NCBI RefSeq assembly: GCF_014635085.1
Contig: NZ_BMCH01000003.1
Span: 1-64,000 of the forward strand
DNA from: Asaia siamensis
GTDB taxonomy: Bacteria; Pseudomonadota; Alphaproteobacteria; Acetobacterales; Acetobacteraceae
Length of the DNA: 64,000 bases
Direction of reading: 5' to 3'
In this document: in pieces, positions 5,143 through 40,803 of the stretch
How the letters are laid out: each line of letters opens with the position of its first letter
How positions within the stretch are numbered: the first letter of the stretch is position 1
The notes under the pieces: generated by a model
The model's database searches: none
What the model saw: only the letters and a program-made list of their open reading frames with translations
Told to the model about the DNA's origin: nothing
Position numbers and translations under genes: made by a program

Positions 5143-6087
5143 TTAGCCCTGCATCCCGCTGAGAAAGATCCTGCGGGCTCGCCAGAGCAGTCTCGGCAGG
5201 CAGATCAATGGATGTCGCGCCTCAAAGGGAGAGAGCTTCAACACGAAGCCACTATGGCGTTCGATTTTCCAGGCAAGATAGGCAGCCCCATTCTTGAAGG
5301 TGAAGGCTGCCTTGATAAGCCGGGCAACGTTGCGCCACCGCCCCTTGCGAGCCATGCGTTCCCATCGACGCTCTGCCCGCAGGCGCTGGGCTGTCGACAG
5401 CCTCGGGGCCACACAGCCGCCCGTCTCATCAAAAGCAAGGCCTGCACTTTGCCATGCCGGGCGGGTAAGCGCGGCGTAACGCGCGTCTTGACCCTGCATG
5501 ATTACAGAACCTCGTGCCGATTGCTCGACACGCAATTCGGCGCGATAGGTACGCCTGAAAAGTGCCTCCCACCATTTTTCGGGGGGATGCGCTCCCTCTT
5601 CCAGACGTGCCGCCCAGCCAGCCGCTGTCGTCACGCAAGAGCGGATGATCGAGAGAAGGGTATCCGCAGCTTCAGGGTTTCTCACCCAGACGAGGCGCAC
5701 CGGCTGGCAGAACCGTGCCCACAGCGTTGTGTCGGCCGAGCGCGGAGACGCCCCGGCACGAAGCTGCTGCATAGTCAGTACGGCAATTTTTGCCCGTAGA
5801 ACCTGCCCGTCGATTTCATGCTCGGCATAAAAGACATTGGGGGGCAACAGATGATTGGCCAGCATCGCTGCGGGCGACGCCGGCCAGTCGGACAGACGCT
5901 CGAGCACGATATAAAAATCGAAAAGCCCTTCGGGGTCGAATTGTCTCAGACCGGAGCCGTAGAAAAGCACACCAAGTGGTCGGGCAATGCCAAGAATCTG
6001 CGTGACCAGCGTATGCAAACGCGGGTCGACCGGTGTCGTCAGTTCACCGATCAGGATCTGATCAAGCGCAGAGTCGGCCTCAGTCAT
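5143..6087 (-). CDS. Tam41/Mmp37-like CTP-dependent lipid cytidylyltransferase
   Basis: A 314-residue protein resembling mitochondrial phosphatidate cytidylyltransferase Tam41. FYGSGLRQF (GSG at residues 44-46) is the nucleotidyltransferase loop, with Asp57 in GLFDFYIVL as a likely metal ligand. An NVFYAEHEIDGQVLRAKI segment corresponds to the family's 'NVYFNP..NG..IKYGV' region. The C-terminal part has RLIKAAFTFKNGAAYLAWK then IERHSG, a strong Tam41 signature. I chose ATG 6087 because it overlaps the upstream kinase stop (ATGACTGA); the longer frame to 6156 would overlap it by 77 bases. Tam41 makes CDP-diacylglycerol from phosphatidate. Beside a DAGK-like kinase in a sphingolipid locus, ceramide-1-phosphate is a plausible substrate (inference). 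Confidence 0.72.
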   Translation of the reverse strand: MTEADSALDQILIGELTTPVDPRLHTLVTQILGIARPLGVLFYGSGLRQFDPEGLFDFYIVLERLSDWPASPAAMLANHLLPPNVFYAEHEIDGQVLRAKIAVLTMQQLRAGASPRSADTTLWARFCQPVRLVWVRNPEAADTLLSIIRSCVTTAAGWAARLEEGAHPPEKWWEALFRRTYRAELRVEQSARGSVIMQGQDARYAALTRPAWQSAGLAFDETGGCVAPRLSTAQRLRAERRWERMARKGRWRNVARLIKAAFTFKNGAAYLAWKIERHSGFVLKLSPFEARHPLICLPRLLWRARRIFLSGMQG

Positions 6088-7039
6088 GCACAAAACCGAA
6101 TTCCGGCCCTTCGGAAAGCACAATGCGATGGCTGGCGCCCGGCGAGAAGCGTTCACCGTCCAGCACGAAATCGCCTTGGCAGGTCAGGACGAGCTCACTC
6201 GCCTTGCCGCTCGTATAATCGGGACTCTCACGCAGCCAGGCCGGCGCACGACCACGGAGCAGCGCCCAGGTCGCCTGCAGCAGCTTTCTGGGATGATCGG
6301 CAACGCGCAGGAAATGCAGGTCGCCGGTTCTCACCTTGCCGGTGTTCCAGAATGGCCAGATACCGAGATTGAGCTTCTGCAATGCGGTGGAGAGAAAAAG
6401 AAAACTCAGTCCATCGACCAGCGGCGTGCCATCCACCTCAAGGGTAAGGCGATCTCCCGCCAGCCAGGTCTCGCGCTGTCGTCGCCAGAGCAGGCTGCCA
6501 AAAGCACCAACCAGAGTCGCAGCTACCGCCAGATTATGCGGCGCGTAGCGCAGCACATGCGGCGAATGGGCTATGGCAATGGCGCGTGCGTAACCCGAAC
6601 TGCCCTGAAACATGCCAAGACGCGTCTCATGCTCACCCTCAGGCCAGGAAATCTTGAGAGGACGGCGGGTCTTGCGCGGCAGAACCGCACTGTTTCGATA
6701 CAGAAGCTTGAGCGCCTCGATACCGCGTGTGGAAAAACCGATATCCTGGGCAATCAGATTGGTATTGCCTGAAGGAAAGATCGCGATATCGGGCAGCGCA
6801 TCCTCGGGATAGATACGCGCAATGGCGGTCATGACATCGCTGACCGTACCATCGCCGCCGTTGATGGCGACCAGCGGGACATTGCGCCGGGCGAGTTCCG
6901 TCACCATCTCCTGCATCTCGTCATGAGAAGAAGGCACGAGAAACCCGTCACCAAGAAGGTCACTCGCCTGGCGCGCGAATTTTCTGCCATCCCGACGGTT
7001 CTTACGACTACGCGGGTTATGGATCAGGGCTAGGCGCAC
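6080..7039 (-). CDS. Diacylglycerol-kinase-family lipid kinase, probable ceramide kinase
   Basis: A 319-residue soluble or peripheral kinase. The DAGK catalytic domain has GGDGT at residues 61-65 (ATP binding) and FPSGNTN at 88-94. The N-terminal IHNPRSRKNRR is the usual start of the fold. The family transfers the ATP gamma-phosphate to a lipid hydroxyl. Caulobacter CpgB, a ceramide kinase, belongs to this superfamily and also lies in the sphingolipid locus. The gene overlaps the start of the Tam41-like gene by 8 bases, so the two are likely made together. It is divergent from the operon starting at 7207. Diacylglycerol or a long-chain base remain alternative substrates. Confidence 0.75.
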   Translation of the reverse strand: MRLALIHNPRSRKNRRDGRKFARQASDLLGDGFLVPSSHDEMQEMVTELARRNVPLVAINGGDGTVSDVMTAIARIYPEDALPDIAIFPSGNTNLIAQDIGFSTRGIEALKLLYRNSAVLPRKTRRPLKISWPEGEHETRLGMFQGSSGYARAIAIAHSPHVLRYAPHNLAVAATLVGAFGSLLWRRQRETWLAGDRLTLEVDGTPLVDGLSFLFLSTALQKLNLGIWPFWNTGKVRTGDLHFLRVADHPRKLLQATWALLRGRAPAWLRESPDYTSGKASELVLTCQGDFVLDGERFSPGASHRIVLSEGPEFGFVHD

Positions 7040-30704: not shown

Positions 30705-32963
30705 TCAGAAATCGGCCGTGACAGAGAATTTGAACGTGCGCGGCAGGCCCTGAAGCAGATAGCCACCGAAAGCACTCTCCCAATAGCGCGTATTGGCAAG
30801 GTTATCGACACCAAGACGGGTCGTGATGGCCTTGTGCTCGACCACGAAGCTGTAACGTGCCCCGACATCGAAGCGTGTCCAGTTCGGTACGCGCAGCTTG
30901 TTGAGGTTGTCGGCATATTGGTGACCGGTCTGGATCACACGCCCGGTAAGCGTCGCGCCACGAATGAACGGCAGATCATATTCAAGATTGCCGTTGATCG
31001 TATAGCCCGGCACGCCGATGGAGCGATTGCCGTCATAAAGCCCCCCCGATGTGCGGCGCTGGCTGGCATCAATGATCGACGTGCCACCATTGAAGCGCAG
31101 ACCCTTCATGATCTCGCCATTGACGGTGAATTCGATACCCCGGTTACGCTGCAATCCGTTGACCGAGAAAATGCTGTTGCTGGTGCCTGCAATGGCAGAG
31201 GTATAGGCATTGGGCTGATCGATCTGGAAAATCGACACAGCGGTCGAGAACCGGCCGATATCGTATTTTGCCCCGAGTTCGTACTGTACCGTCTGATAGG
31301 GCGGGAAGATCTGACCGAGATTGACGACCTGACCGGTGGCCTGCGGGCCGGGGGCCAGCCCTTCGATACGGTTGAAATAGATTGAGGTCTGTCGCGTGGG
31401 ATGCACCACAAGACCGACAACCGGCGTGAACGCGCCCTGATCGTAAGACGTCGTGCTGGCACCGTAATTATAGGCAACCGTCTTGATTGCCTGATAGCGG
31501 AAGCCCGCCGTCAGCGCCACGCGGTCATGAAAAGCAGAGACGGTGTCAGAGAAGAAAAGGCTCCAGAGCCGCACCCGGTTGTTCAATTGGGGATTGTCGA
31601 TATTTCCGCCAATCCATGTCTCAGGCTGTGCCGTGGCATGACGTATCGGATTATAGATATTATTGGCCTGATTGGTGAGGGCGAAAGCGTATGCAGTCGC
31701 TGTATCTTCCCACAGGCCCGAACCACCAGCATTGACTTCATGCTTGATGCCACCAGTGTTGAAATGCGCGCGCAGCCCGGCCTGTGTGCTCTTGTTGGTC
31801 TGCACATAGGGCACATACATCGCCCCGTTATAGCCTGCGCCGGTCTGGCTGTTGGTTACGTAGGTGCTGCCGTAATTGCCCTTTTCGTTGCCACCCAGAC
31901 CACCGAACTGCGCATACGCGGTCAGGTATTTGCTGAAATCATGCTCGACCTTGAGCTTGCCATAGATGTAGTTGAGCTCGGTATAGGTCCAGGGCTGACC
32001 ATAATTCGTCCCTGCGCCCGGGACCTTCGGTACCGAGGTGACGCCGCTCAGAAACACGCCACCGCGACCGCCATTCACGCCCTGGTTCTCATAGGCCATG
32101 TCGATGGTCACCCGCGTGCGGTCGGCACGATCATGCCAGTCGAAACCACCACCTACGGCCACCTGATGCCGCTTTTCACGGTCAATGGCCGTAACACCGC
32201 TGCGACCAGCCACATTGATGCGCACGCCGAACTGCTTGTCCTGACCGAAACGGCGCCCCACATCGACGGCACCGCCGCCCATCGACGAGCTCGTATAGTC
32301 GCCCGTGACACGCGTCAGAGGCGTATCGCCCGCATGCTTGAATTCGAGATTGATGTTGCCGCCCTGCGCCGTGCCACCAGGCGCCGCACCGTTCAGGAAG
32401 GCACTGGCACCGTTGAGAACCTGAACCTGCTCATAAAGCTGGGGGGAGACAAGCTGGCGCGGCGTGATGCCATACAGCCCGTCAATCGCGACATCATCGC
32501 CGTAAACGGGAAATCCACGGATGACAAACTGTTCCGAGAAATTGCCATAACCCAGCGTCGTGCGCACGGTCGGGTCGTTCATCAGCACTTCACCCAGCGT
32601 CTGTGACTGCTGGTTCAGGATCAGGGCTGAGGTATAGCTGCGTACGTTGAAGGGCACATCGAGCCCCTTCTTGTTACCCAGTGCACCGAGATTACCGCCA
32701 GACTTCACTTCCATGCGGTTCTGGCGCTGTGCCTTCACCTCGATCTGCTCATCCGACGAAAGCTCTCTACCCCCGGATGATGCGGCGGCCTGTTTCTGGG
32801 CGGGTTTACCTTGTTTTTGTTGTGCCTGTGCTTGAACATTCGTCTGATCCTGTGCGCGCGCCTCGCAGGCAAGAGCGGCAGACATCATCAGAAGGGCAGA
32901 AAATGCGATGCGCTGTGAGCGCTTACGCAGAGGATTGACGGTAATCAGGGCCGAACTGTTCAA
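30705..32963 (-). CDS. TonB-dependent siderophore receptor
   Basis: A 752-residue outer-membrane receptor. The signal peptide is RKRSQRIAFSALLMMSAALACEARA. A Gln/Ala-rich linker precedes the plug domain (about residues 95-205), which has EQFVIRGFPVYGDDVAIDGLYG and AFLNGAAPGGTAQGGNINLEFK. A 22-strand barrel follows, ending in the C-terminal aromatic SVTADF. The open frame begins with TTG at 32963; no in-frame ATG or GTG upstream of the signal sequence is apparent. It imports a ferric siderophore using TonB energy. It is divergent from the DUF3649-PepSY-DUF3325 genes, a common iron-uptake arrangement. I saw no clear Fur box in the 130-base divergent gap. Confidence 0.9.
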   Translation of the reverse strand: MNSSALITVNPLRKRSQRIAFSALLMMSAALACEARAQDQTNVQAQAQQKQGKPAQKQAAASSGGRELSSDEQIEVKAQRQNRMEVKSGGNLGALGNKKGLDVPFNVRSYTSALILNQQSQTLGEVLMNDPTVRTTLGYGNFSEQFVIRGFPVYGDDVAIDGLYGITPRQLVSPQLYEQVQVLNGASAFLNGAAPGGTAQGGNINLEFKHAGDTPLTRVTGDYTSSSMGGGAVDVGRRFGQDKQFGVRINVAGRSGVTAIDREKRHQVAVGGGFDWHDRADRTRVTIDMAYENQGVNGGRGGVFLSGVTSVPKVPGAGTNYGQPWTYTELNYIYGKLKVEHDFSKYLTAYAQFGGLGGNEKGNYGSTYVTNSQTGAGYNGAMYVPYVQTNKSTQAGLRAHFNTGGIKHEVNAGGSGLWEDTATAYAFALTNQANNIYNPIRHATAQPETWIGGNIDNPQLNNRVRLWSLFFSDTVSAFHDRVALTAGFRYQAIKTVAYNYGASTTSYDQGAFTPVVGLVVHPTRQTSIYFNRIEGLAPGPQATGQVVNLGQIFPPYQTVQYELGAKYDIGRFSTAVSIFQIDQPNAYTSAIAGTSNSIFSVNGLQRNRGIEFTVNGEIMKGLRFNGGTSIIDASQRRTSGGLYDGNRSIGVPGYTINGNLEYDLPFIRGATLTGRVIQTGHQYADNLNKLRVPNWTRFDVGARYSFVVEHKAITTRLGVDNLANTRYWESAFGGYLLQGLPRTFKFSVTADF

Positions 32964-33094
32964 GAGGGTGATCTCATTGACAAGGGGTAAATGACGCGGT
33001 CAAATAGACGCGATTAAGAAACGCTCGCAACTAAACTTTGGCCCTTCCGACGGTCTTTCGTCAGGAAAAGCAGGCCCTGTTGCACAGGAACCAC

Positions 33095-33373
33095 ATGCGA
33101 AAGAGTCTCAAAAAAAAACATGACCGAAAGCTGATCCGTGCCTGGACCCTGCGGCTCATACTGGGCACCGCGTTCGTCTATATTGCGGGTATCGGTATGC
33201 TCTCTCTCTTTCGCCGCATGGGCGGAGAGCCTTTCTTGAATGTCGGGTTTCTGTGCGCCTTTGCCCTCATGCCCGCCCTGCTACTCGTGATTTTCTCAAT
33301 CCCGCCCCGCCGAAAGCGTAATATCGTGCCCAGCCTGGCCCTGCTCGCCCCCTGTCTCGGATGGCTCTTCTGA
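33095..33373 (+). CDS. Small DUF3649-like membrane protein of an iron-uptake module
   Basis: 92 residues: a strongly basic N-terminus (RKSLKKKHDRK), then three hydrophobic segments (about 15-32, 45-65 and 76-91). AGGAA lies 4 bases before ATG 33095. Its stop shares one base with the next ATG (TGATG). Small proteins of this type occur with PepSY and DUF3325 genes beside siderophore receptors. The function is unknown, possibly helping ferric-siderophore reduction or export across the inner membrane. Confidence 0.65.
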   Translation: MRKSLKKKHDRKLIRAWTLRLILGTAFVYIAGIGMLSLFRRMGGEPFLNVGFLCAFALMPALLLVIFSIPPRRKRNIVPSLALLAPCLGWLF

Positions 33374-34851
33374 TGCGAGACACGCTTCGCATCCGCATGG
33401 GATGGCTTCATGAATGGGTTGGGTTCATCGGCGGGCTTATTCTGGTTGTCGTCTTCACCGGGGGCTCACTGGCTCTGTTCGATACCGAACTGACCCACTG
33501 GATGCAGCCGGAACTCTCCCGCTATCAACCGTCCCCCCTAAGCGATGACGCGCTCAACCGGATCGGCAGACTGGCGCAGGATCTGCGCAGCCAGGGTCAG
33601 AACGCTTTCATCACCCTGCCGACGCCACGCGACCCCATGCTGCGCGTCCAGTATTTCAACGGCCACGCCTTTATCGGCACAGTCTATAATCCGGCGGACG
33701 GCTTTCCCATTCTCACGCGTGAGACTGGCGGCGGGCAGCTCTTTTTCGACCTGCATCACTCCCTCTATTACGGCCCCTTCTGGGGGAACATGCTCACCGA
33801 AATCGCTGCAATCGGCCTTCTTGTGGCCGTCGTTTCAGGGATCATCATCCATTTCCGCAGCATTCTGACCGATCTCCTGCTGTTCCGACCCTTCGCCTCG
33901 AAAACGCGCGCCTGGATGGATGCGCATATTCTGGCAGGTCTGCTGTTTCTGCCTTTCATGGCGATGATGGCCTATACCGGCGCCGTCATTCACGCCCCGC
34001 GCCTCTTTCCGATGTTCGGCATGGGGCATCATGGCAGGCCGGGCCACGAGCGACCGGCACATCCTCAGGGCGGCAGGGCACCCGGGAACGGGCAGAACGC
34101 TCCTGCCCTCGCGCCCCTCGCACCGATGCTGCACAAGGCCGAAGCCGTTCTTGGAGCCGATACAGTCGGTCTGATCCTGTTCGAACGGGGCACGGTATCG
34201 ATGACAAAAGCCGATTCCGCGTCTTTCGCCCTGTCACGCGATCACGTGACCTTTTCCGAGAAAGACGGCAGCCAGATCGCCGTCGTCCAGATACCGGATA
34301 ATCTTCACCGCATCGGCGGCGTGCTGCGGGGTCTGCATTTCATTCGCTGGGCATCCTTGCCCATGCGCTGGCTCTATTTCATTTCCGGTCTCGTCGGCAG
34401 CATCATGATGTCTGGCGGCCTGATCCTGTTCCTGATGAAACACCGCCCCAAAAAGGCACGGAGCTTTCTGTTCCGCCTGGCCGAGACGCTGACCATTGCC
34501 GTAACGACGGGCCTGCCACTTGCCTGTCTTTCCTATCTCTGGGCCAATCGTCTTTTCTGGTCGGATCTGCCTGCTCGCGGCGCCTTAGAGATCCGGACCT
34601 TCTTTATTGTCTGGGCTCTGGCCCTCATTCATGCTGCCTTACGCAGCTTCAGTGCAAAACCGAGACGAGGCTGGAACGAGCAATGCGCAGTTTTTGCGGC
34701 TTTCGCGCTGACGCTTTTCCCGCTCGATCTGCTGACGCGCAGCGCAAACGGTTTTCTCAACGGTTTCGATGTTTATAAATCTGTCGATCTGACGGTTTTC
34801 TGCTTCGGTCTTGCAGCGCTTTTCATCCATCGCAGGCTTGTCGCCCTATGA
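33373..34851 (+). CDS. PepSY-associated transmembrane protein (siderophore/iron reductase-like)
   Basis: A 492-residue inner-membrane protein. The first helix has LHEWVGFIGGLILVVVFTGGSLALFD with the typical His. A periplasmic PepSY region follows, then FDLHHSLYYGPFWGNMLTEIAAIGLL and DAHILAGLLFLPFMAMMAYTGAVI. Four further helices lie in the C-terminal half. A His/Gly/Pro-rich loop (about 225-245) separates the halves. Conserved His in the helices suggest heme or metal binding; homologues are proposed to reduce ferric siderophores. ATG 33373 overlaps the previous stop, and its stop overlaps the DUF3325 start (ATGA). Confidence 0.85.
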   Translation: MRDTLRIRMGWLHEWVGFIGGLILVVVFTGGSLALFDTELTHWMQPELSRYQPSPLSDDALNRIGRLAQDLRSQGQNAFITLPTPRDPMLRVQYFNGHAFIGTVYNPADGFPILTRETGGGQLFFDLHHSLYYGPFWGNMLTEIAAIGLLVAVVSGIIIHFRSILTDLLLFRPFASKTRAWMDAHILAGLLFLPFMAMMAYTGAVIHAPRLFPMFGMGHHGRPGHERPAHPQGGRAPGNGQNAPALAPLAPMLHKAEAVLGADTVGLILFERGTVSMTKADSASFALSRDHVTFSEKDGSQIAVVQIPDNLHRIGGVLRGLHFIRWASLPMRWLYFISGLVGSIMMSGGLILFLMKHRPKKARSFLFRLAETLTIAVTTGLPLACLSYLWANRLFWSDLPARGALEIRTFFIVWALALIHAALRSFSAKPRRGWNEQCAVFAAFALTLFPLDLLTRSANGFLNGFDVYKSVDLTVFCFGLAALFIHRRLVAL

Positions 34852-35230: not shown

Positions 35231-36034
35231 TCAGGGCTTCTTTTCTGCCTGAGCCCGGCTTTCTGCAGCACGCTGGGCATAGGAAGCAGCCTTGTTCAAC
35301 TGACCTGCCCCTCTTGCTGCATTGGCTGCGCAGTCGAGACCGCGCGCCATACCGCGATAATCCAGAATATCCCGACGCAGGGTTACAGCCTTCAATGCCT
35401 CGTTCTCGGCCACGTCATAGGCTCCCTGACGCAGCGCCAGGCGAGACTCGATTTCAGCGCGATCGGCCTGTTCGAGCAAAGGAGGTTTGGCAGAATGCGG
35501 CAGGGCATCGCGCGCGCTGGCGAGAGTTTTCACATCCCCCAGCCCATCTGCGGCAAGCCCCGTAAGGAAGGCGCGCCGCTCACCCAATGCCGGATCGCTG
35601 GTCTGGATACGCCCGCCAGCGTCAAGGGCAGCCTGATACTGACCGAGGCGACAATAGGCCGCCATCGCAACAAGCTCCAGCTCTGCGCCAGCCGTCGCCC
35701 CACGCAGATTCAGGGCACGATGCGTCTGCGCAACGGTGCCCAGAGCCGCCTGAGGGTCGCCCATTCCGAGCTGCGCCACGGCCAGATTATAGCCTGCATC
35801 GTCGATCGCCACGGCATCGTCACGCAGCAGGGCACGATCATAAGCCGTCTGGAACTGCGCCCGGGCCTGTTCGGCTCGGGTCATGTCGAACGCTTCGCGC
35901 CCGACATCCATGGCATTGGCGTAGTCCTGATCGGTGCGTACCCCGCCATGATCGCCCGCGCCGCCGCAGGCGGTCAGGCCAGCAAGAGCGCTGACCGCGA
36001 CAAGAGCCCGATATCTCCGGGTTTGGGATCTCAT
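35231..36034 (-). CDS. TPR-like lipoprotein of the MCE operon
   Basis: A 267-residue protein with a lipoprotein signal: hydrophobic residues 10-21 ending LTAC at the lipobox. The mature part is almost entirely alpha-helical with tetratricopeptide-like repeats (A/L/Y-rich, e.g. QARAQFQTAYDRAL, AELELVAMAAYCRLGQYQAAL). I chose ATG 36034 because it overlaps the mlaD-like stop (ATGA). As last gene of the MCE operon it may take the place of an outer-membrane or periplasmic partner such as PqiC or MlaA (inference). Confidence 0.75.
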   Translation of the reverse strand: MRSQTRRYRALVAVSALAGLTACGGAGDHGGVRTDQDYANAMDVGREAFDMTRAEQARAQFQTAYDRALLRDDAVAIDDAGYNLAVAQLGMGDPQAALGTVAQTHRALNLRGATAGAELELVAMAAYCRLGQYQAALDAGGRIQTSDPALGERRAFLTGLAADGLGDVKTLASARDALPHSAKPPLLEQADRAEIESRLALRQGAYDVAENEALKAVTLRRDILDYRGMARGLDCAANAARGAGQLNKAASYAQRAAESRAQAEKKP

Positions 36035-36999
36035 GGCTTGATATCTCCGGCGCGCAATTTGCGTGGCGTTGCCTTGCCTGAGCTGCCTCCAAGAATCCAA
36101 AGGCTGCGCAATTGGTCGGTCAGTTTCTTCAGGCTGTTCGCCGTTGCCTGGGCCTGGGTTAGCAGAGCGGGAAGCTGGGCGCTCGCCTCATTCATATGCG
36201 CCATCGTCTCCTTGAGTTGCGGCGTGGCCTTCTTCACGTCATTGCTGCTCGAGCGCAGATTACTCATTGTGCCTTCGGTCTGCTTCAGCACGCCCGAAAC
36301 CTGTGCCTCGATGGGCTTCAGACGCTCGATTGAGTCCTGCAGCGACTTGAGAACGTCAACGGCATGGTTGAGCAGCTTGTCATCCATGATGATCCCGCCA
36401 ACCGATCCCTTCCCTGCACGAATGGCGTTCGTGACCGTTGCCAGATCAGCCATGATCCTATCGGCATTATGCAGGCTGGGCATCATACCAGCGCGGATAT
36501 CAGCAATGGTCTTGGTGATCATATCGGCAGGGTTGGGCTCGACCGTAGCCTCCAGCTCGGCAAACTCCCAGTCCATTGCCGGCCCCTTGCTGCGCTCCAG
36601 CTCGATATAGCTCGCGCCGGCGACGACAAAGCGATGACGGATGATCGCGCGACTATCCTTGCGAATATAGGGCTCAAACTGCGGATCAATATCGGCAATC
36701 GCATACATGTTGCCATGAGGATTGATCTTCACCGAGCGGATAGACCCGATACGAATGCCCATGAGCTCGATATCGTTACCGACAGCGAGCCCGGCGATGC
36801 CACTTTCAGGCAGGTTGAAATGCAGCTTGCCGGAAGGCGTCAGCCAGTCGCGCAGCACACCCGCCTCGATGATCGCGAAAATGAACAGACCGAATGTCGC
36901 CATCACGAGAATGCCGACCCATTCATCTGCGTAACGGATACGCATCAGCGGTCGTGAACGGCCATCGGCCTCGGAATTGGAGCGTACGCGAAACATCAC
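36031..36999 (-). CDS. MlaD-like MCE-domain protein
   Basis: A 322-residue protein with a membrane anchor at about residues 29-47. A single MCE domain spans about 55-135 (FNLPESGIAGLAVGNDIELMGIRIGSIRSV, then AIIRHRFVVAGASYIELER). A long helical C-terminal region with coiled-coil character follows (about 160-305). MCE proteins form hexameric rings or tubes that carry lipids between inner and outer membranes. The C-terminal helix is longer than that of E. coli MlaD and is closer to the periplasm-spanning LetB/PqiB-type or organelle TGD2-type proteins. Overlaps of four bases on both sides indicate co-translation with neighbours. Confidence 0.85.
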   Translation of the reverse strand: MMFRVRSNSEADGRSRPLMRIRYADEWVGILVMATFGLFIFAIIEAGVLRDWLTPSGKLHFNLPESGIAGLAVGNDIELMGIRIGSIRSVKINPHGNMYAIADIDPQFEPYIRKDSRAIIRHRFVVAGASYIELERSKGPAMDWEFAELEATVEPNPADMITKTIADIRAGMMPSLHNADRIMADLATVTNAIRAGKGSVGGIIMDDKLLNHAVDVLKSLQDSIERLKPIEAQVSGVLKQTEGTMSNLRSSSNDVKKATPQLKETMAHMNEASAQLPALLTQAQATANSLKKLTDQLRSLWILGGSSGKATPRKLRAGDIKP

Positions 37000-37697
37000 A
37001 CCACCTGCTTCATTGGCATCAGACCTTCATCCAGCAATCTGAAACGCTGCGTGCCCATGGCATTGTAGCCATGCCAGAGTTCCGGCTCCCGCGAGAACCA
37101 GATGACACCACAACCGCGTTCCCGTGCTGCGGTCAGTTCGGCAAGAAAGGCCGTCATCATATCGGCATTCTCCTGTTCGACAGGGTCTTCCAGCAGGAGC
37201 AGGCGTGGCTCCCCCAGAAAGGCCCTGACGCAGGCAGCCTTTGCCCGGTCAGCCTTGCTCAGCCTGCCGGGCGCCAGGCTTGGCAAACCCGGAAGTCCGA
37301 AGCGTCGGGCCAGAGCCGTCGCTTCATCAACGAGATCCTGCGTCGGCGTGCGCGTGTGATGCAGCTGCTGGACAAGGATATTCAGATCGGTCCCGAAGAG
37401 ATCGATCCATGCCCCCTGCTGCATCACCCGCCCGATCCTGCCACGCAACGCCCAGGCGCGCGTCTCGGCGAGCTTCTCCCAATCAAGGCCCAGACACAGT
37501 GCATGACCCGACACGAGTGGCGTCAATCCGCTACACAGATCGGCAAAGCGCGTCGCCCGCAGCGGATCGCGGCAGGCGATCAACAGGCAATCGCCGGGCA
37601 TGAGACGCAAAGAATAAGGAATGGACGCCAGTCCGCTTTCTTCAAAAACCGGCAGGGCTTCTCTCAATTCCAGCACAGCAGAAAGATCATCGCTCAT
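36996..37697 (-). CDS. Degenerate ABC ATPase (MlaF-like pseudo-ATPase)
   Basis: A 233-residue protein with the order of an ABC ATPase but eroded motifs. The Walker A position (41-49) reads ACRDPLRAT with no glycine loop and Arg in place of Lys. The Q-loop VMQQ (91-94) is kept. The signature position (146-150) reads LSKAD instead of LSGGQ. Walker B is LLLLEDP (167-172, acidic residues swapped to E-D). The H-loop position reads WFSRE with no His. ATG 37697 overlaps the mlaE-like stop (ATGA). It probably retains the MlaF fold and MlaE contact, but ATP hydrolysis is doubtful. The reading frame is intact, so it is not simply a decayed gene. Confidence 0.75.
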   Translation of the reverse strand: MSDDLSAVLELREALPVFEESGLASIPYSLRLMPGDCLLIACRDPLRATRFADLCSGLTPLVSGHALCLGLDWEKLAETRAWALRGRIGRVMQQGAWIDLFGTDLNILVQQLHHTRTPTQDLVDEATALARRFGLPGLPSLAPGRLSKADRAKAACVRAFLGEPRLLLLEDPVEQENADMMTAFLAELTAARERGCGVIWFSREPELWHGYNAMGTQRFRLLDEGLMPMKQVV

Positions 37698-38500
37698 GCG
37701 ACAGCCACCCCGAGAACGACATTCACGATCATGATCACCATAATGCCACGGGCAAAGCCACGCGGCAGCAGCGTTGCCAGCGTATCGCTGCGCGTGGCGT
37801 CGAGACCGGTCAGCTGGGTAGCCAGGCTGAGCAGAAATCCGCTGAGAACCAGTTTGAGCGGAATGCCGATATAATCGATCGGCTTCATGGCGCCGACGAT
37901 GTCGTAAAGAAACGTCCAGAGTGGCATCGTGATGATGGCGTGCAGTCTGCATACGCCATAACCCACTGAAAGCGCGATAACACTGAACACAACGCCAAGT
38001 GTGAACGAAGCGAGCATTGTCGCCAGAGCGCGCGGCATTACCAGAGTCAGAAACGGATCGATGCCCTGAGCCTGGAGTGCACGAAGCTCTCCTCCGATCG
38101 TCAACTGCCCAAGCTGTGTCAAGCTGAGCATGGCGCTCCGGCCGAGAAGGATGATGCCGACCAAAACAGGCGCGATTTCACGCACCAGAACCGTCGCAAG
38201 GAGGGAATCCGTCGTATCCGCCATTCCCGCAATGCCGAGCCAGTAGATAGCTTGCGCCACAATGCCGAACCCCGTCAGCGCTGCCGTAAAGAGCGTGCTG
38301 AAAAGCCCGCCTCCTGCCGACTGACGCAGCGTGCTCTTGAACTCGTAGATGACGGTGCGACGCCATGAGGTGGGGCGAGAAGCTTCTCGCACAACCCCCC
38401 AGCTTGCGCCGACGAGCATGAGTGTGAAGCGAAGCTGTCGTCGCGTCAGCCCGCCCAGACGGTGCAGAAAGCGCCGATAAAAAGGTAGCTCTTCTCTCAC
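37694..38500 (-). CDS. MlaE-like permease of the MCE lipid transport operon
   Basis: A 268-residue integral membrane protein with five to six helices. The MlaE family core includes TGFGIVAQAIYWLGIAG, then LVREIAPVLVGIILLGRSAMLSLTQLGQ (family: 'RE.GPVLT.L.vaGR.g......LG'). GELRALQAQGIDP follows (family: 'EIdAL...G.dP....v.PR'). The match is good although LGQLTIGGEL departs from the usual 'GtM.vteEi'. MlaE dimers pass phospholipid to or from the MCE ring. Its start overlaps the stop of the upstream receptor gene (ATGA). Confidence 0.87.
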   Translation of the reverse strand: MREELPFYRRFLHRLGGLTRRQLRFTLMLVGASWGVVREASRPTSWRRTVIYEFKSTLRQSAGGGLFSTLFTAALTGFGIVAQAIYWLGIAGMADTTDSLLATVLVREIAPVLVGIILLGRSAMLSLTQLGQLTIGGELRALQAQGIDPFLTLVMPRALATMLASFTLGVVFSVIALSVGYGVCRLHAIITMPLWTFLYDIVGAMKPIDYIGIPLKLVLSGFLLSLATQLTGLDATRSDTLATLLPRGFARGIMVIMIVNVVLGVAVA

Positions 38501-40803
38501 CGCCGCGCCGCCAGCACATAAGTATTGGTGATACCTAAGGCAGGCAGATAAAACATGCCGCGCGGTCGGAAGAGATAAAAATCGCGCAGCAGCGCATGGG
38601 CCGCTTCCGATACCTGGATAGTGCCCGCATCGGGTGCGCTGACTGCCAGAAGCTCGGACGTTTGCGGCGCCTCTCCCCAGACGTTGAACACCTCCGGCTC
38701 CTTGCCGAGAGTTGCTCCGAAGGCACGGCCGACATCAAGGCCGATCCGGAAATTGGGCGTCAGATCGGCATCGGACAAAGTGATCAGAGCCAGCTCGCGC
38801 AACGCAAGAAGCGCATCGGCCACACGACGCGCGGCCTCTGGATCAGGCTCCTGCGAACACCCGCCGATCAGAACGAGGCGGCTCCCCAGAACCTGAGCGG
38901 AAAACAGATTCTGCTGCTGGACCACCTCCTGAAATTTTTCGACGAGATCCTGCACGATCGGAATCAGGGCAACGTCGCTTTCGGTCGTGGAGTCCTGAAA
39001 CAGCACCGTTGCGACAGGCACCATGGCGTATTGACCCGAGGCAAGCTCACCGGCACCCCGCCTCTCTGGCGCAGCGATAAACCCCTCGCTCAGGCGCGCT
39101 TTAATGCTCGCGGATTCCTCACGGCGTTGCGGGGCCGGCTTTGCGGTACTGCTTTCATCTTCGCGCATGGCCGCAAACCGTATGGCCGCGACCTCAGCAA
39201 CAATGGCGATGATATGCGACACTGCGTGGGGCCGGATCGCATCTTCAAGCACGACCATACCGATAACAAGGCCGCGCGCGAGGATGGGCTGGATATAGAC
39301 CGATTTTGAGCCGATCTGCGCCATGACCATGCGCTGGAACGTACGCAGGCCTTCCTGACTTGCGGCATGATCGCTCTCGATCACTTCGCCTGCCATCAAT
39401 TGGGTAAAGAAGTTCTTCAGATCGCTATGCGACAACTCCATGCCAGCACTATGCGCTTCGGTAGCACTGTCATAGGAATCCTCGCAAAGCAGCCGTTCAT
39501 CGTCACCGACGGAGCGCCAGAACCCCACACGTCTTGCCTTTGCGAGTTCAGCCAGTCTCTGGGTGAGCAAGGGGGCGTCCTGCGTCGGATCGAGAAGATG
39601 AGGTGTCCCCGCCATCGCATTGAGAGCCCGGCTCTCGGCTTTCACCTGCGCACGCTCAAAGCCGATCTGCCGGCGCAGACGCTCGGTCCTGCGATTCTGA
39701 CGCACCAGAAAACCCGCCAGAAGCGCGGCAAGCACAACAATCACAAGCGAAAAGAGAAGTCCCTGTCGTCCAGCGGCCGCCGCAAAGGCGGCAAAATCGT
39801 CTTCGGGCGCATTCAGCAGCAAGACCCAACCCGGCCTTATCTTGTGCAGCGAGGCCATGATGGTGACATACTGCGTGTCATGCGCCTTGATGAGGTGTAC
39901 CCCCGCGCCATAAATGTGGAACAGGGAGAGCGCTCTGGTGAAGACGGGTTGCGTCTGCGGATCGAGCAGCATCTTGTCGAACTGCCAATCGGCCTTGCGT
40001 GCCACATCCAGCAGATTATTGCCCGCTATCATGCGGCCTTCCTTGTCGACCACGACCGCCTTGCCGCTTTTTCCGATCTTGATGGCCGCAAGGAAATCAG
40101 TCAGCCGGTTAAGGGAAATATTGATCGCAAAAACTGCCTGATGACCGTCAGATGTATGGAGAACGCTCGCTGCAGTAACAATCAGCTGCTCGGTCGCGAC
40201 GGTCGGATAAGGATCGGACCAGTTCAGATCGGGATGCTCGAAGGCCCCTTTGTACCAAGGGCGCTGACGCGGGTCATAATCCTTTCCCGGCGTATCCATG
40301 ACGCGAACGAGCTTGCCGCCCTTGTCGTAATACCAGTGTCGGAAAACGTTCTTGTCGCGCAGCAGATGCACCCATTCCATACCATCGCTGATTGCCTCTG
40401 GTGCGCGATCAATAAACCAGAAGGACCCGCGATCATCAGCCAGATAAAAGCTTTCAACCTGGGTGACATTGCGTAGCATGGAGGCGCCATACGCCAGGAA
40501 GACCCGGGGAGGTTCATCGGTAACAGGGTCGGTCAGCAGATCACGTGCCACAATGGCGGTTGCCGGAGCTGGCGCGAGATAATCCGACACTTCTTGCGTG
40601 ATGTTTTTCTGTTCTTCGCTGAGCAGGTCCTGGGAAAGCGAGATCACGCCATTGCGTGTCTTGTGGTAGGAGTGCAGCGTGACGATGACGATCACCACAA
40701 TAACGAGCACAACCCCAAGAATGGGGGCGACGAGCTCGATCAAACGGCGCCTTCTTGTTTCGGCTTCCGGATCAGCCGGATCTATAATCTCGGAAACAGG
40801 CAA
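38497..40803 (-). CDS. dCache receptor with GAF and degenerate class III cyclase-like domain
   Basis: A 768-residue membrane sensor. TM1 lies at about residues 22-44 and a periplasmic double-Cache domain at about 50-345 (DPRQRPWYKGA and WSDPYPTVATEQLIVTAASV are Cache hallmarks). TM2 is at about 350-372. A GAF-like region spans about 395-555 and a C-terminal nucleotide-cyclase-like domain about 600-768. The last has VATVLFQDST (one metal-Asp position kept), NVWGEAPQTSELL and a matching GTIQVSEAAHALL tail. The second metal Asp is replaced (LGSRLVLIGG), so catalysis is unlikely. It is the first gene of the MCE operon, coupled to the permease by ATGA. It may gate or localise lipid transport in response to a ligand. 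Confidence 0.7.
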   Translation of the reverse strand: MPVSEIIDPADPEAETRRRRLIELVAPILGVVLVIVVIVIVTLHSYHKTRNGVISLSQDLLSEEQKNITQEVSDYLAPAPATAIVARDLLTDPVTDEPPRVFLAYGASMLRNVTQVESFYLADDRGSFWFIDRAPEAISDGMEWVHLLRDKNVFRHWYYDKGGKLVRVMDTPGKDYDPRQRPWYKGAFEHPDLNWSDPYPTVATEQLIVTAASVLHTSDGHQAVFAINISLNRLTDFLAAIKIGKSGKAVVVDKEGRMIAGNNLLDVARKADWQFDKMLLDPQTQPVFTRALSLFHIYGAGVHLIKAHDTQYVTIMASLHKIRPGWVLLLNAPEDDFAAFAAAAGRQGLLFSLVIVVLAALLAGFLVRQNRRTERLRRQIGFERAQVKAESRALNAMAGTPHLLDPTQDAPLLTQRLAELAKARRVGFWRSVGDDERLLCEDSYDSATEAHSAGMELSHSDLKNFFTQLMAGEVIESDHAASQEGLRTFQRMVMAQIGSKSVYIQPILARGLVIGMVVLEDAIRPHAVSHIIAIVAEVAAIRFAAMREDESSTAKPAPQRREESASIKARLSEGFIAAPERRGAGELASGQYAMVPVATVLFQDSTTESDVALIPIVQDLVEKFQEVVQQQNLFSAQVLGSRLVLIGGCSQEPDPEAARRVADALLALRELALITLSDADLTPNFRIGLDVGRAFGATLGKEPEVFNVWGEAPQTSELLAVSAPDAGTIQVSEAAHALLRDFYLFRPRGMFYLPALGITNTYVLAARR

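Follow-up and report, generated by a model that had tools for sequence, protein, structure and literature searches.

In a 64,000-nucleotide stretch of the genome of Asaia siamensis (Acetobacteraceae), hereafter the window, to which all coordinates refer, the third gene of a five-gene minus-strand cluster encodes a protein that is homologous to the ATPases of ATP-binding cassette (ABC) transporters and has lost their catalytic motifs. Judged by these losses, this “pseudo-ATPase” very probably lacks canonical ATPase activity. We consider it reasonably likely that an ABC ATPase has here been turned into a fixed pseudo-ATPase scaffold or gate, which serves as the cytoplasmic subunit of a distinct Mce-type lipid transporter found in acetic acid bacteria. 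Comparison at the sequence level demonstrates near-full-length ABC homology, motif loss, a single clade, purifying selection, shifted constraint and linkage to a changed permease. The gene, which lies on the minus strand, had been placed correctly, at 36996–37697, in an earlier note on the window, which described an MlaF-like ATPase with degraded motifs.

Homology to ABC ATPases

The profile built from 44 family members (A2) gave 277 matches to PDB chains at E ≤ 1e-5, the best with E 2.3e-21 over profile positions 2–210, and the best 60 of the 277 were all ABC proteins. In hhalign, the canonical paralogue was aligned over 170 columns with 97.6% probability. Since the profile matches span nearly the full length, we rejected the suggestion that the protein is unrelated to ABC proteins. 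Taken alone, the window protein scores 19.3 bits with PF00005, under the 25-bit cut-off, and PF00005 was reported for 25 of the 44 members at E ≤ 0.01. With respect to the ABC transporter ATPases (PF00005 superfamily), homology is thus found over the nucleotide-binding domain, but Walker A, the signature, Walker B and the H-loop are all absent in functional form.

The nearest families at the profile level are FtsE, DevA, LolD and MlaF together, while for the single window sequence MlaF is the best PDB match (E 2.7e-6). The profile being equally near FtsE, DevA and LolD, the term “MlaF-like” of the earlier note leans largely on gene context, namely the operon position between the MlaE and MlaD/MCE genes. 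The NCBIfam equivalog model of MlaF (NF008809) gave 21 bits at a cut-off of 441, which is a weak test because the canonical MlaF proteins of the same genome also fall under this cut-off (197 and 164 bits). The pseudo-ATPase is 233 amino acids (aa) long versus 262 in the canonical paralogue and 269 in the E. coli PDB chain, and judged by this length the C-terminal “handshake” extension (about 25 aa, clasping the partner subunit) may be absent.

Loss of the Catalytic Motifs

Two intact MlaF paralogues adjoin MlaE genes on contigs C2 and C1 of the Asaia genome, with the motifs GGSGSGKS/LSGGM/FFDEP/THD and GGSGCGKS/ISGGM/FFDEP/SHE. Against both of them the Walker A stretch of the window protein, C-R-D-P-L-R-A-T, aligns without gaps, which is why we regard Walker A as mutated and rejected its deletion. 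The alignment bears out the reading of the earlier note that residues 41–49 (ACRDPLRAT) lack the Lys and glycines of Walker A, that residues 146–150 are LSKAD, that Walker B carries the swap E170-D171 instead of the canonical Asp-Glu, and that the H-loop His is missing. R203 stands at the position of this His. The D-loop is degraded as well.

The same changes are fixed across the relatives. For the tally we used 66 aligned orthologue rows from 64 genomes (63 distinct sequences), aligned together with the canonical pair. Lys at position 48 and Gly at position 47 of Walker A occur in none of the 66 rows; in the signature, Gly is found at 148 in one row and at 149 in five, never at both. The Walker B Asp position (170) has Glu in 65 rows and Asp in one, and Asp and Glu do not occur together in any row. 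The Q-loop Gln is present in 21 of the 66. At the former Walker A, R43, D44 and R47 are recurrent (45, 46 and 43 of 66 rows, respectively).

The consequences of such changes can be suggested from E. coli MlaF, in which the K47A and E170Q variants are reported to fail in complementation (PMC7367683), and the E170Q protein is reported to lose about 80% of its ATPase activity (PMC7784689). The residues that match K47 and E170 are A48 and D171 in the window protein. Because of these two residues, the other losses and the failure of the E. coli mutants, a textbook cycle is very unlikely.

Conservation and Selection

The earlier note had proposed selection on a non-hydrolysing role, and two of the checks that it suggested are in favour of this: the loss of the Walker A Lys and of the signature glycine pair is fixed in 66 of 66 rows, and the ratio of nonsynonymous to synonymous substitution (dN/dS) is low. 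Among ten sequences, eight of them from the genus of the window, 38 of the 45 pairs had finite dS, and dN/dS was 0.03–0.15 across these pairs, values that are rough because dS exceeds 1 in all but one; the sole unsaturated pair gave dN/dS 0.05 at dS 0.157. Such values point to strong purifying selection on the pseudo-ATPase. Residues R85, G89, G137, R158 and A159 are invariant in the 66 rows, and E170, P139, P164 (65/66 each) and H114 (64/66) are nearly so.

As a control, canonical MlaF and the pseudo-ATPase were paired within 30 genomes and compared in ten stretches. All 30 canonical proteins retain every motif; it is for this reason that we treat the pseudo-ATPases as a separate clade with invariant residues of its own. 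In the tree, all 37 pseudo-ATPase sequences lie on one side of a single branch (100/100), with long branches and an unsettled bootstrap, so that the sister group is left unplaced. Mean entropy was 2.22 bits in the pseudo-ATPase versus 0.10 in canonical MlaF at Walker A, and 1.64 versus 0.00 at residues 146–151 (signature). The helical stretch 105–141 was similar in both (1.43 versus 1.32), while residues 83–90 (ALRGRIGR; 0.26 versus 1.47) and 133–139 (FGLPGLP; 0.14 versus 0.53) were tighter in the pseudo-ATPase. The ATP site has thus become less constrained, and other stretches more so. Over the whole protein the pseudo-ATPase family has changed faster (mean pairwise identity 0.457 versus 0.716 in canonical MlaF), and its distances correlate with those of canonical MlaF (r 0.76), which fits mainly vertical descent.

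In ABC proteins, the stretches before the Q-loop and the helical subdomain face the permease. The two tightened blocks correspond to these regions, a pattern that fits selection for contact and not for ATP. We therefore favour a scaffold or a gate as the role of the pseudo-ATPase and regard it as quite likely.

Distribution

Orthologues were first identified among relatives; a profile search of 397 sampled Acetobacteraceae genomes (E ≤ 1e-20) then detected the pseudo-ATPase gene in 136 genomes and in 38 of 102 genera. A dead motor inherited in dozens of genera suggests that the transporter probably works otherwise than the textbook one. In the order-level sample, 185 of 200 genomes had matches at E ≤ 1e-20, a figure that includes matches of at most 97 bits taken as canonical ABC ATPases and is not used as a carrier count. 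The genome searches start with a loose first look and can miss genes; for example, the NF008809 search missed the intact MlaF of G061, which was seen by eye, so this search cannot show absence.

Two of the 136 carriers have broken copies (G007 and G157); in the other listed carriers the frames are open, without stops. In G157 the operon is in pieces (L129), and its congener G078 (L096) has the longest branch of the family: this genus is losing the operon and provides an example of genuine decay. The copy in G007 (L014) has a frame break near residues 91–96, which may be an assembly error since this genome is only 85% complete. We also considered 28 selected carriers with genomes of 1.7–2.9 Mb: canonical MlaE and the MlaE of this system were both found in 27 of them, 11 having only those two, and the MlaE matches of the 28th (G157) are fragmentary. 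Reduced genomes can therefore keep the system, with no frequency implied, because they were picked as carriers.

Outside the family, the class sample contained one genome with the pseudo-ATPase, G454 (255 bits; other non-family genomes at most about 91 bits), which belongs to another alphaproteobacterial family and has all five genes of the cluster, its subunit being degenerate in the same way (L128). Two sampled congeners (G581 and G678) have no such match, which suggests horizontal transfer. A profile of the MlaE clade gave a similar picture in 337 class genomes: five exceeded 300 bits, namely G454 and four Acetobacteraceae, and the rest reached at most 104. Neither the pseudo-ATPase profile (289 class genomes) nor the MlaE-clade profile (337) led to a recognisable version of the gene set in which the motor is intact; the lower-scoring matches were taken as canonical relatives without one-by-one reading, so an intermediate could hide among them.

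Gene Arrangement and Partner Genes

The genes follow each other on the minus strand in the order Cache-GAF-cyclase sensor, MlaE, pseudo-ATPase, MCE protein and putative lipoprotein (Table 1). Both an MlaE permease domain and an MCE-domain protein are thus present, as expected for a Mce/Mla lipid transport system, with the pseudo-ATPase gene placed between them, as in MlaF.

Table 1. Positions of the genes and of the altered motifs of the pseudo-ATPase in the window
Feature	Position	Strand	Basis and remarks
Membrane sensor with Cache, GAF and degenerate class III cyclase domains	38497..40803	minus	PF02743, PF01590 and PF00211 above cut-off
MlaE-type permease, 268 aa, divergent clade	37694..38500	minus	PF02405 108.3 bits (cut-off 22.5); GTG start
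Pseudo-ATPase (degenerate ABC nucleotide-binding subunit, MlaF position)	36996..37697	minus	233 aa + stop; ABC homology, catalytic motifs lost
Degenerate Walker A, residues 41–50 ACRDPLRATR	37548..37577	minus	alignment with MlaF and orthologues
Newly conserved stretch preceding the former Q-loop, residues 83–91 ALRGRIGRV	37425..37451	minus	entropy
Degenerate signature region, residues 146–151 LSKADR	37245..37262	minus	alignment with MlaF and orthologues
Degenerate Walker B, residues 166–172 LLLLEDP	37182..37202	minus	Asp replaced by Glu, and the catalytic Glu by Asp
MlaD/MCE-domain protein with long coiled-coil tail	36031..36999	minus	PF02470 46 bits (cut-off 25.1)
Putative lipoprotein	probably 35231..36034	minus	LTAC lipobox-like stretch after the in-frame ATG at 36034 (by-eye reading)

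All the neighbours overlap. The cyclase and MlaE genes share GTGA, the MlaE stop and the pseudo-ATPase start share the four bases ATGA, and the pseudo-ATPase and MCE genes overlap by one base in TGATG if the latter starts at its ATG (the candidates are ATG at 36996 and GTG at 36999). The frame of 233 codons and a stop is thus intact and coupled at both ends, as the earlier note had it. The MCE and lipoprotein genes overlap via ATGA: the latter, whose mechanical open reading frame extends to 36100, would start at an in-frame ATG (36034) that overlaps the stop of the MCE gene. The putative lipoprotein has weak TPR_2 similarity (17.1 bits, below cut-off), and a lipoprotein-like gene also lies downstream in most relatives' loci examined. 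Promoter-like sites are at the shuffle expectation (2 versus 1.9), and the 7 terminator-like sites against 4.6 expected (standard deviation 2.3) are not a clear excess.

In the permease clade, the coupling-helix position at which both canonical MlaE proteins of the Asaia genome have Asp carries Arg in 29 of 42 sequences and Asp in only 2. The coupling helix mediates the contact of MlaE with MlaF, according to PMC7790496. The second canonical MlaE of this genome (L070, G000:C1:166000-178000, 5398–6651, minus strand; 417 aa) has a long N-terminal extension that recalls the STAS-fused MpcE of Brucella.

The degenerate cyclase upstream was overlooked in the earlier note. The sensor belongs to the class III cyclase homologues (PF00211, 42.5 bits at a cut-off of 21.9), is the only PF00211 match of the Asaia genome at E ≤ 0.001, and has the adenylate cyclase 7yzi as its best PDB match (E 7.4e-12). 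We aligned 36 rows with 7yzi (Cya of M. intracellulare), the roles of the catalytic residues being assigned after Rv1625c. The substrate Asp is found in none of the 36 rows, and Asn replaces it in 35. The transition-state Asn and Arg occur in two rows each and never together, and the metal-binding Asp residues are retained in 25 (first) and 5 (second). Judged by these positions, the catalytic residues of class III enzymes are not present as a set, and the cyclase domain is predicted to be catalytically dead.

We examined the arrangement in 41 loci, the window included, chosen to cover divergence and not at random. MlaE, the pseudo-ATPase and MCE stand in order in 39 of them, and in 31 the full set of five is collinear on a single strand. 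Five further loci miss one or two downstream genes, four of these being at contig ends. The loci L074, L077 and L078 of genus g119 have a four-gene core without a neighbouring cyclase gene. When three of the five cyclase-less loci were viewed upstream by eye, two adjoined a peptide-transporter-like gene and the third had no cyclase-like gene. Because such loci exist, the sensor is a common neighbour and not an obligate one.

Two other observations concern the window. An open frame of 326 aa (36894–37874, plus strand) lies opposite the pseudo-ATPase gene; it resembles a mirror frame of G+C-rich coding sequence and is without support as a gene. At 30705–34851, a gene for a TonB-dependent siderophore-type receptor (minus strand) adjoins one for a PepSY-like membrane protein (plus strand), according to a by-eye reading of the translations.

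Proposed Mechanism

We suppose that the pseudo-ATPase would dimerise and dock on the coupling helix of MlaE, where it may hold the permease in a working conformation or gate it without hydrolysing ATP. More speculatively, lipids may pass down their own gradient via MlaE and the MCE coiled-coil channel toward an outer-membrane lipoprotein, and the upstream Cache-GAF pseudo-cyclase may signal to the complex by protein contact and not by nucleotide synthesis. Passive downgradient flow combined with such contact signalling is a tentative idea, which we think rather unlikely to hold in full. Still more doubtful is the complete scheme of an ATP-free “ABC” lipid transporter, in which the periplasmic Cache sensor would act through the pseudo-cyclase on the pseudo-ATPase dimer to gate an MlaE-MCE conduit, two enzyme folds having been stripped of catalysis and retained for signalling. 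In this scheme the ABC fold would be nothing more than a gate.

Several observations weigh against the scaffold or gate. The catalytic Glu (position 171) is retained in 9 of the 66 rows and the H-loop His in 2, although not in the window protein. An Arg-Asp pair recurs at the former Walker A and could bind another ligand. The pseudo-ATPase is tighter than canonical MlaF in only two of the ten stretches measured, and it is looser in Walker B (1.12 versus 0.45 bits) and the signature helix (0.73 versus 0.21). AlphaFold2 with seven Asaia sequences gave a mean predicted local distance difference test (pLDDT) score of 42.9, and the model was not used; because of this poor prediction, the fold, the dimer and the docking are taken from homology, and the function is predicted from sequence. 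No adjacent cyclase match is found in 5 of the 41 loci (all in genus g119, with one locus truncated at the end of its contig), and the locus L075 (G418) has the permease and the pseudo-ATPase with no MCE or lipoprotein match downstream, although it is not cut by a contig end.

Alternative Explanations

The system may borrow its motor: an intact MlaF from one of the two canonical systems of the same cell would dock on this MlaE, either by itself or paired with the pseudo-ATPase in a heterodimer, much as mycobacterial Mce permeases share one MceG. The Asaia genome has two intact MlaF genes, 32 of the 33 genomes selected as operon carriers also yielded a canonical MlaF, heterodimers with one degenerate site are known among ABC exporters, and MceG is described as thought to be common to several mycobacterial Mce systems (PMC9882608). 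Nevertheless, all the intact MlaF genes checked (both of Asaia and those of G061, G147 and G098) adjoin an MlaE of their own, and the Asp of the canonical coupling helix is rare in the permease clade, as given above. Each ABC ATP site needs Walker A of one subunit and the signature of the other. Since the pseudo-ATPase has neither, both half-site parts being destroyed, no complete site would arise in the heterodimer; an intact MlaF homodimer could still dock in place of the pseudo-ATPase. We consider a borrowed motor improbable.

The second possibility, to which we give the same low probability, is that MlaE itself is energised, for example by protons, coupling lipid movement to an ion gradient, the dead ABC subunit being structural. 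ATPase-free inner-membrane Mce transport has a precedent, because PqiA and LetA are described as having no ATPase domain (PMC12436622). However, these proteins are not known to be homologues of MlaE.

Equally unlikely, in our opinion, is that the old ATP pocket became a regulatory site for another ligand, such as a metabolite or a second-messenger nucleotide, and that the subunit would be a ligand-controlled gate. The recurrence of C-R-D-x-x-R-A at the former Walker A in many members fits this idea, as does the sensor of the operon, whose dead cyclase domain may itself bind a ligand. On the contrary, many divergent rows lack this pattern, and the Walker A loop is among the most variable of the stretches measured.

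Ordinary decay, a pseudogene or a sequencing error can be practically dismissed as a general explanation: the fragmented operon of G157, the long branch of G078 and the frame break of G007 would agree with it, but the other carriers have open frames, dN/dS is low, the same losses are shared by 64 genomes, and no aligned relative has the intact motifs that the earlier note had named as the sign of recent decay.

Comparison with Known Systems

With MlaF of the E. coli MlaFEDB (PDB 6xbd and others), the pseudo-ATPase shares the ABC homology and the place between the MlaE and MCE genes, but not the intact motifs. The MceG/YrbE systems of mycobacteria are also Mce transporters, and their permease is of the MlaE type; MceG is described as an ATPase that is encoded elsewhere and thought to be shared (PMC9882608), whereas the operon described here encodes a dead subunit of its own. 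In PqiABC and LetAB, which are Mce systems too, the inner-membrane protein has no ATPase domain, but they are described as having no ABC subunit at all (PMC12436622), while here it is retained but dead. The Brucella Mpc system (MpcEFDA), which is likewise alphaproteobacterial, has a similar gene set, with MlaE, MlaF, a long MCE protein and a lipoprotein; its MpcF is described as a homologue of MlaF and an ABC ATPase, within an ABC transporter that is well conserved, and its MpcE has an N-terminal STAS domain (PMC12436622).

Catalytic residues of an ATP site were also lost in the degenerate-site ABC exporters (such as TAP and MRP1). Such exporters keep one competent site per dimer, whereas the pseudo-ATPase encodes no competent half-site. 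The sensor shares domain homology with Cya (PDB 7yzi) and differs from it by the replacement of the substrate Asp with Asn and by the loss of the Asn/Arg pair. We found no report of this pseudo-ATPase family in the open-access literature, among the top-ranked matches.

Biological Meaning

Two open questions in outer-membrane biology are how Mce systems are energised and in which direction they move lipids. The clade described here made long ago the changes that disable E. coli MlaF, and the subunit has nevertheless been kept under purifying selection, usually in a cell that also has an intact Mla system. We suggest that this represents a natural experiment, in which the scaffold role of an ABC subunit was separated from that of a motor; the bacteria concerned can be cultured and edited in the laboratory. 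If the conduit is passive, the MlaE-MCE channel would be able to work free of a motor.

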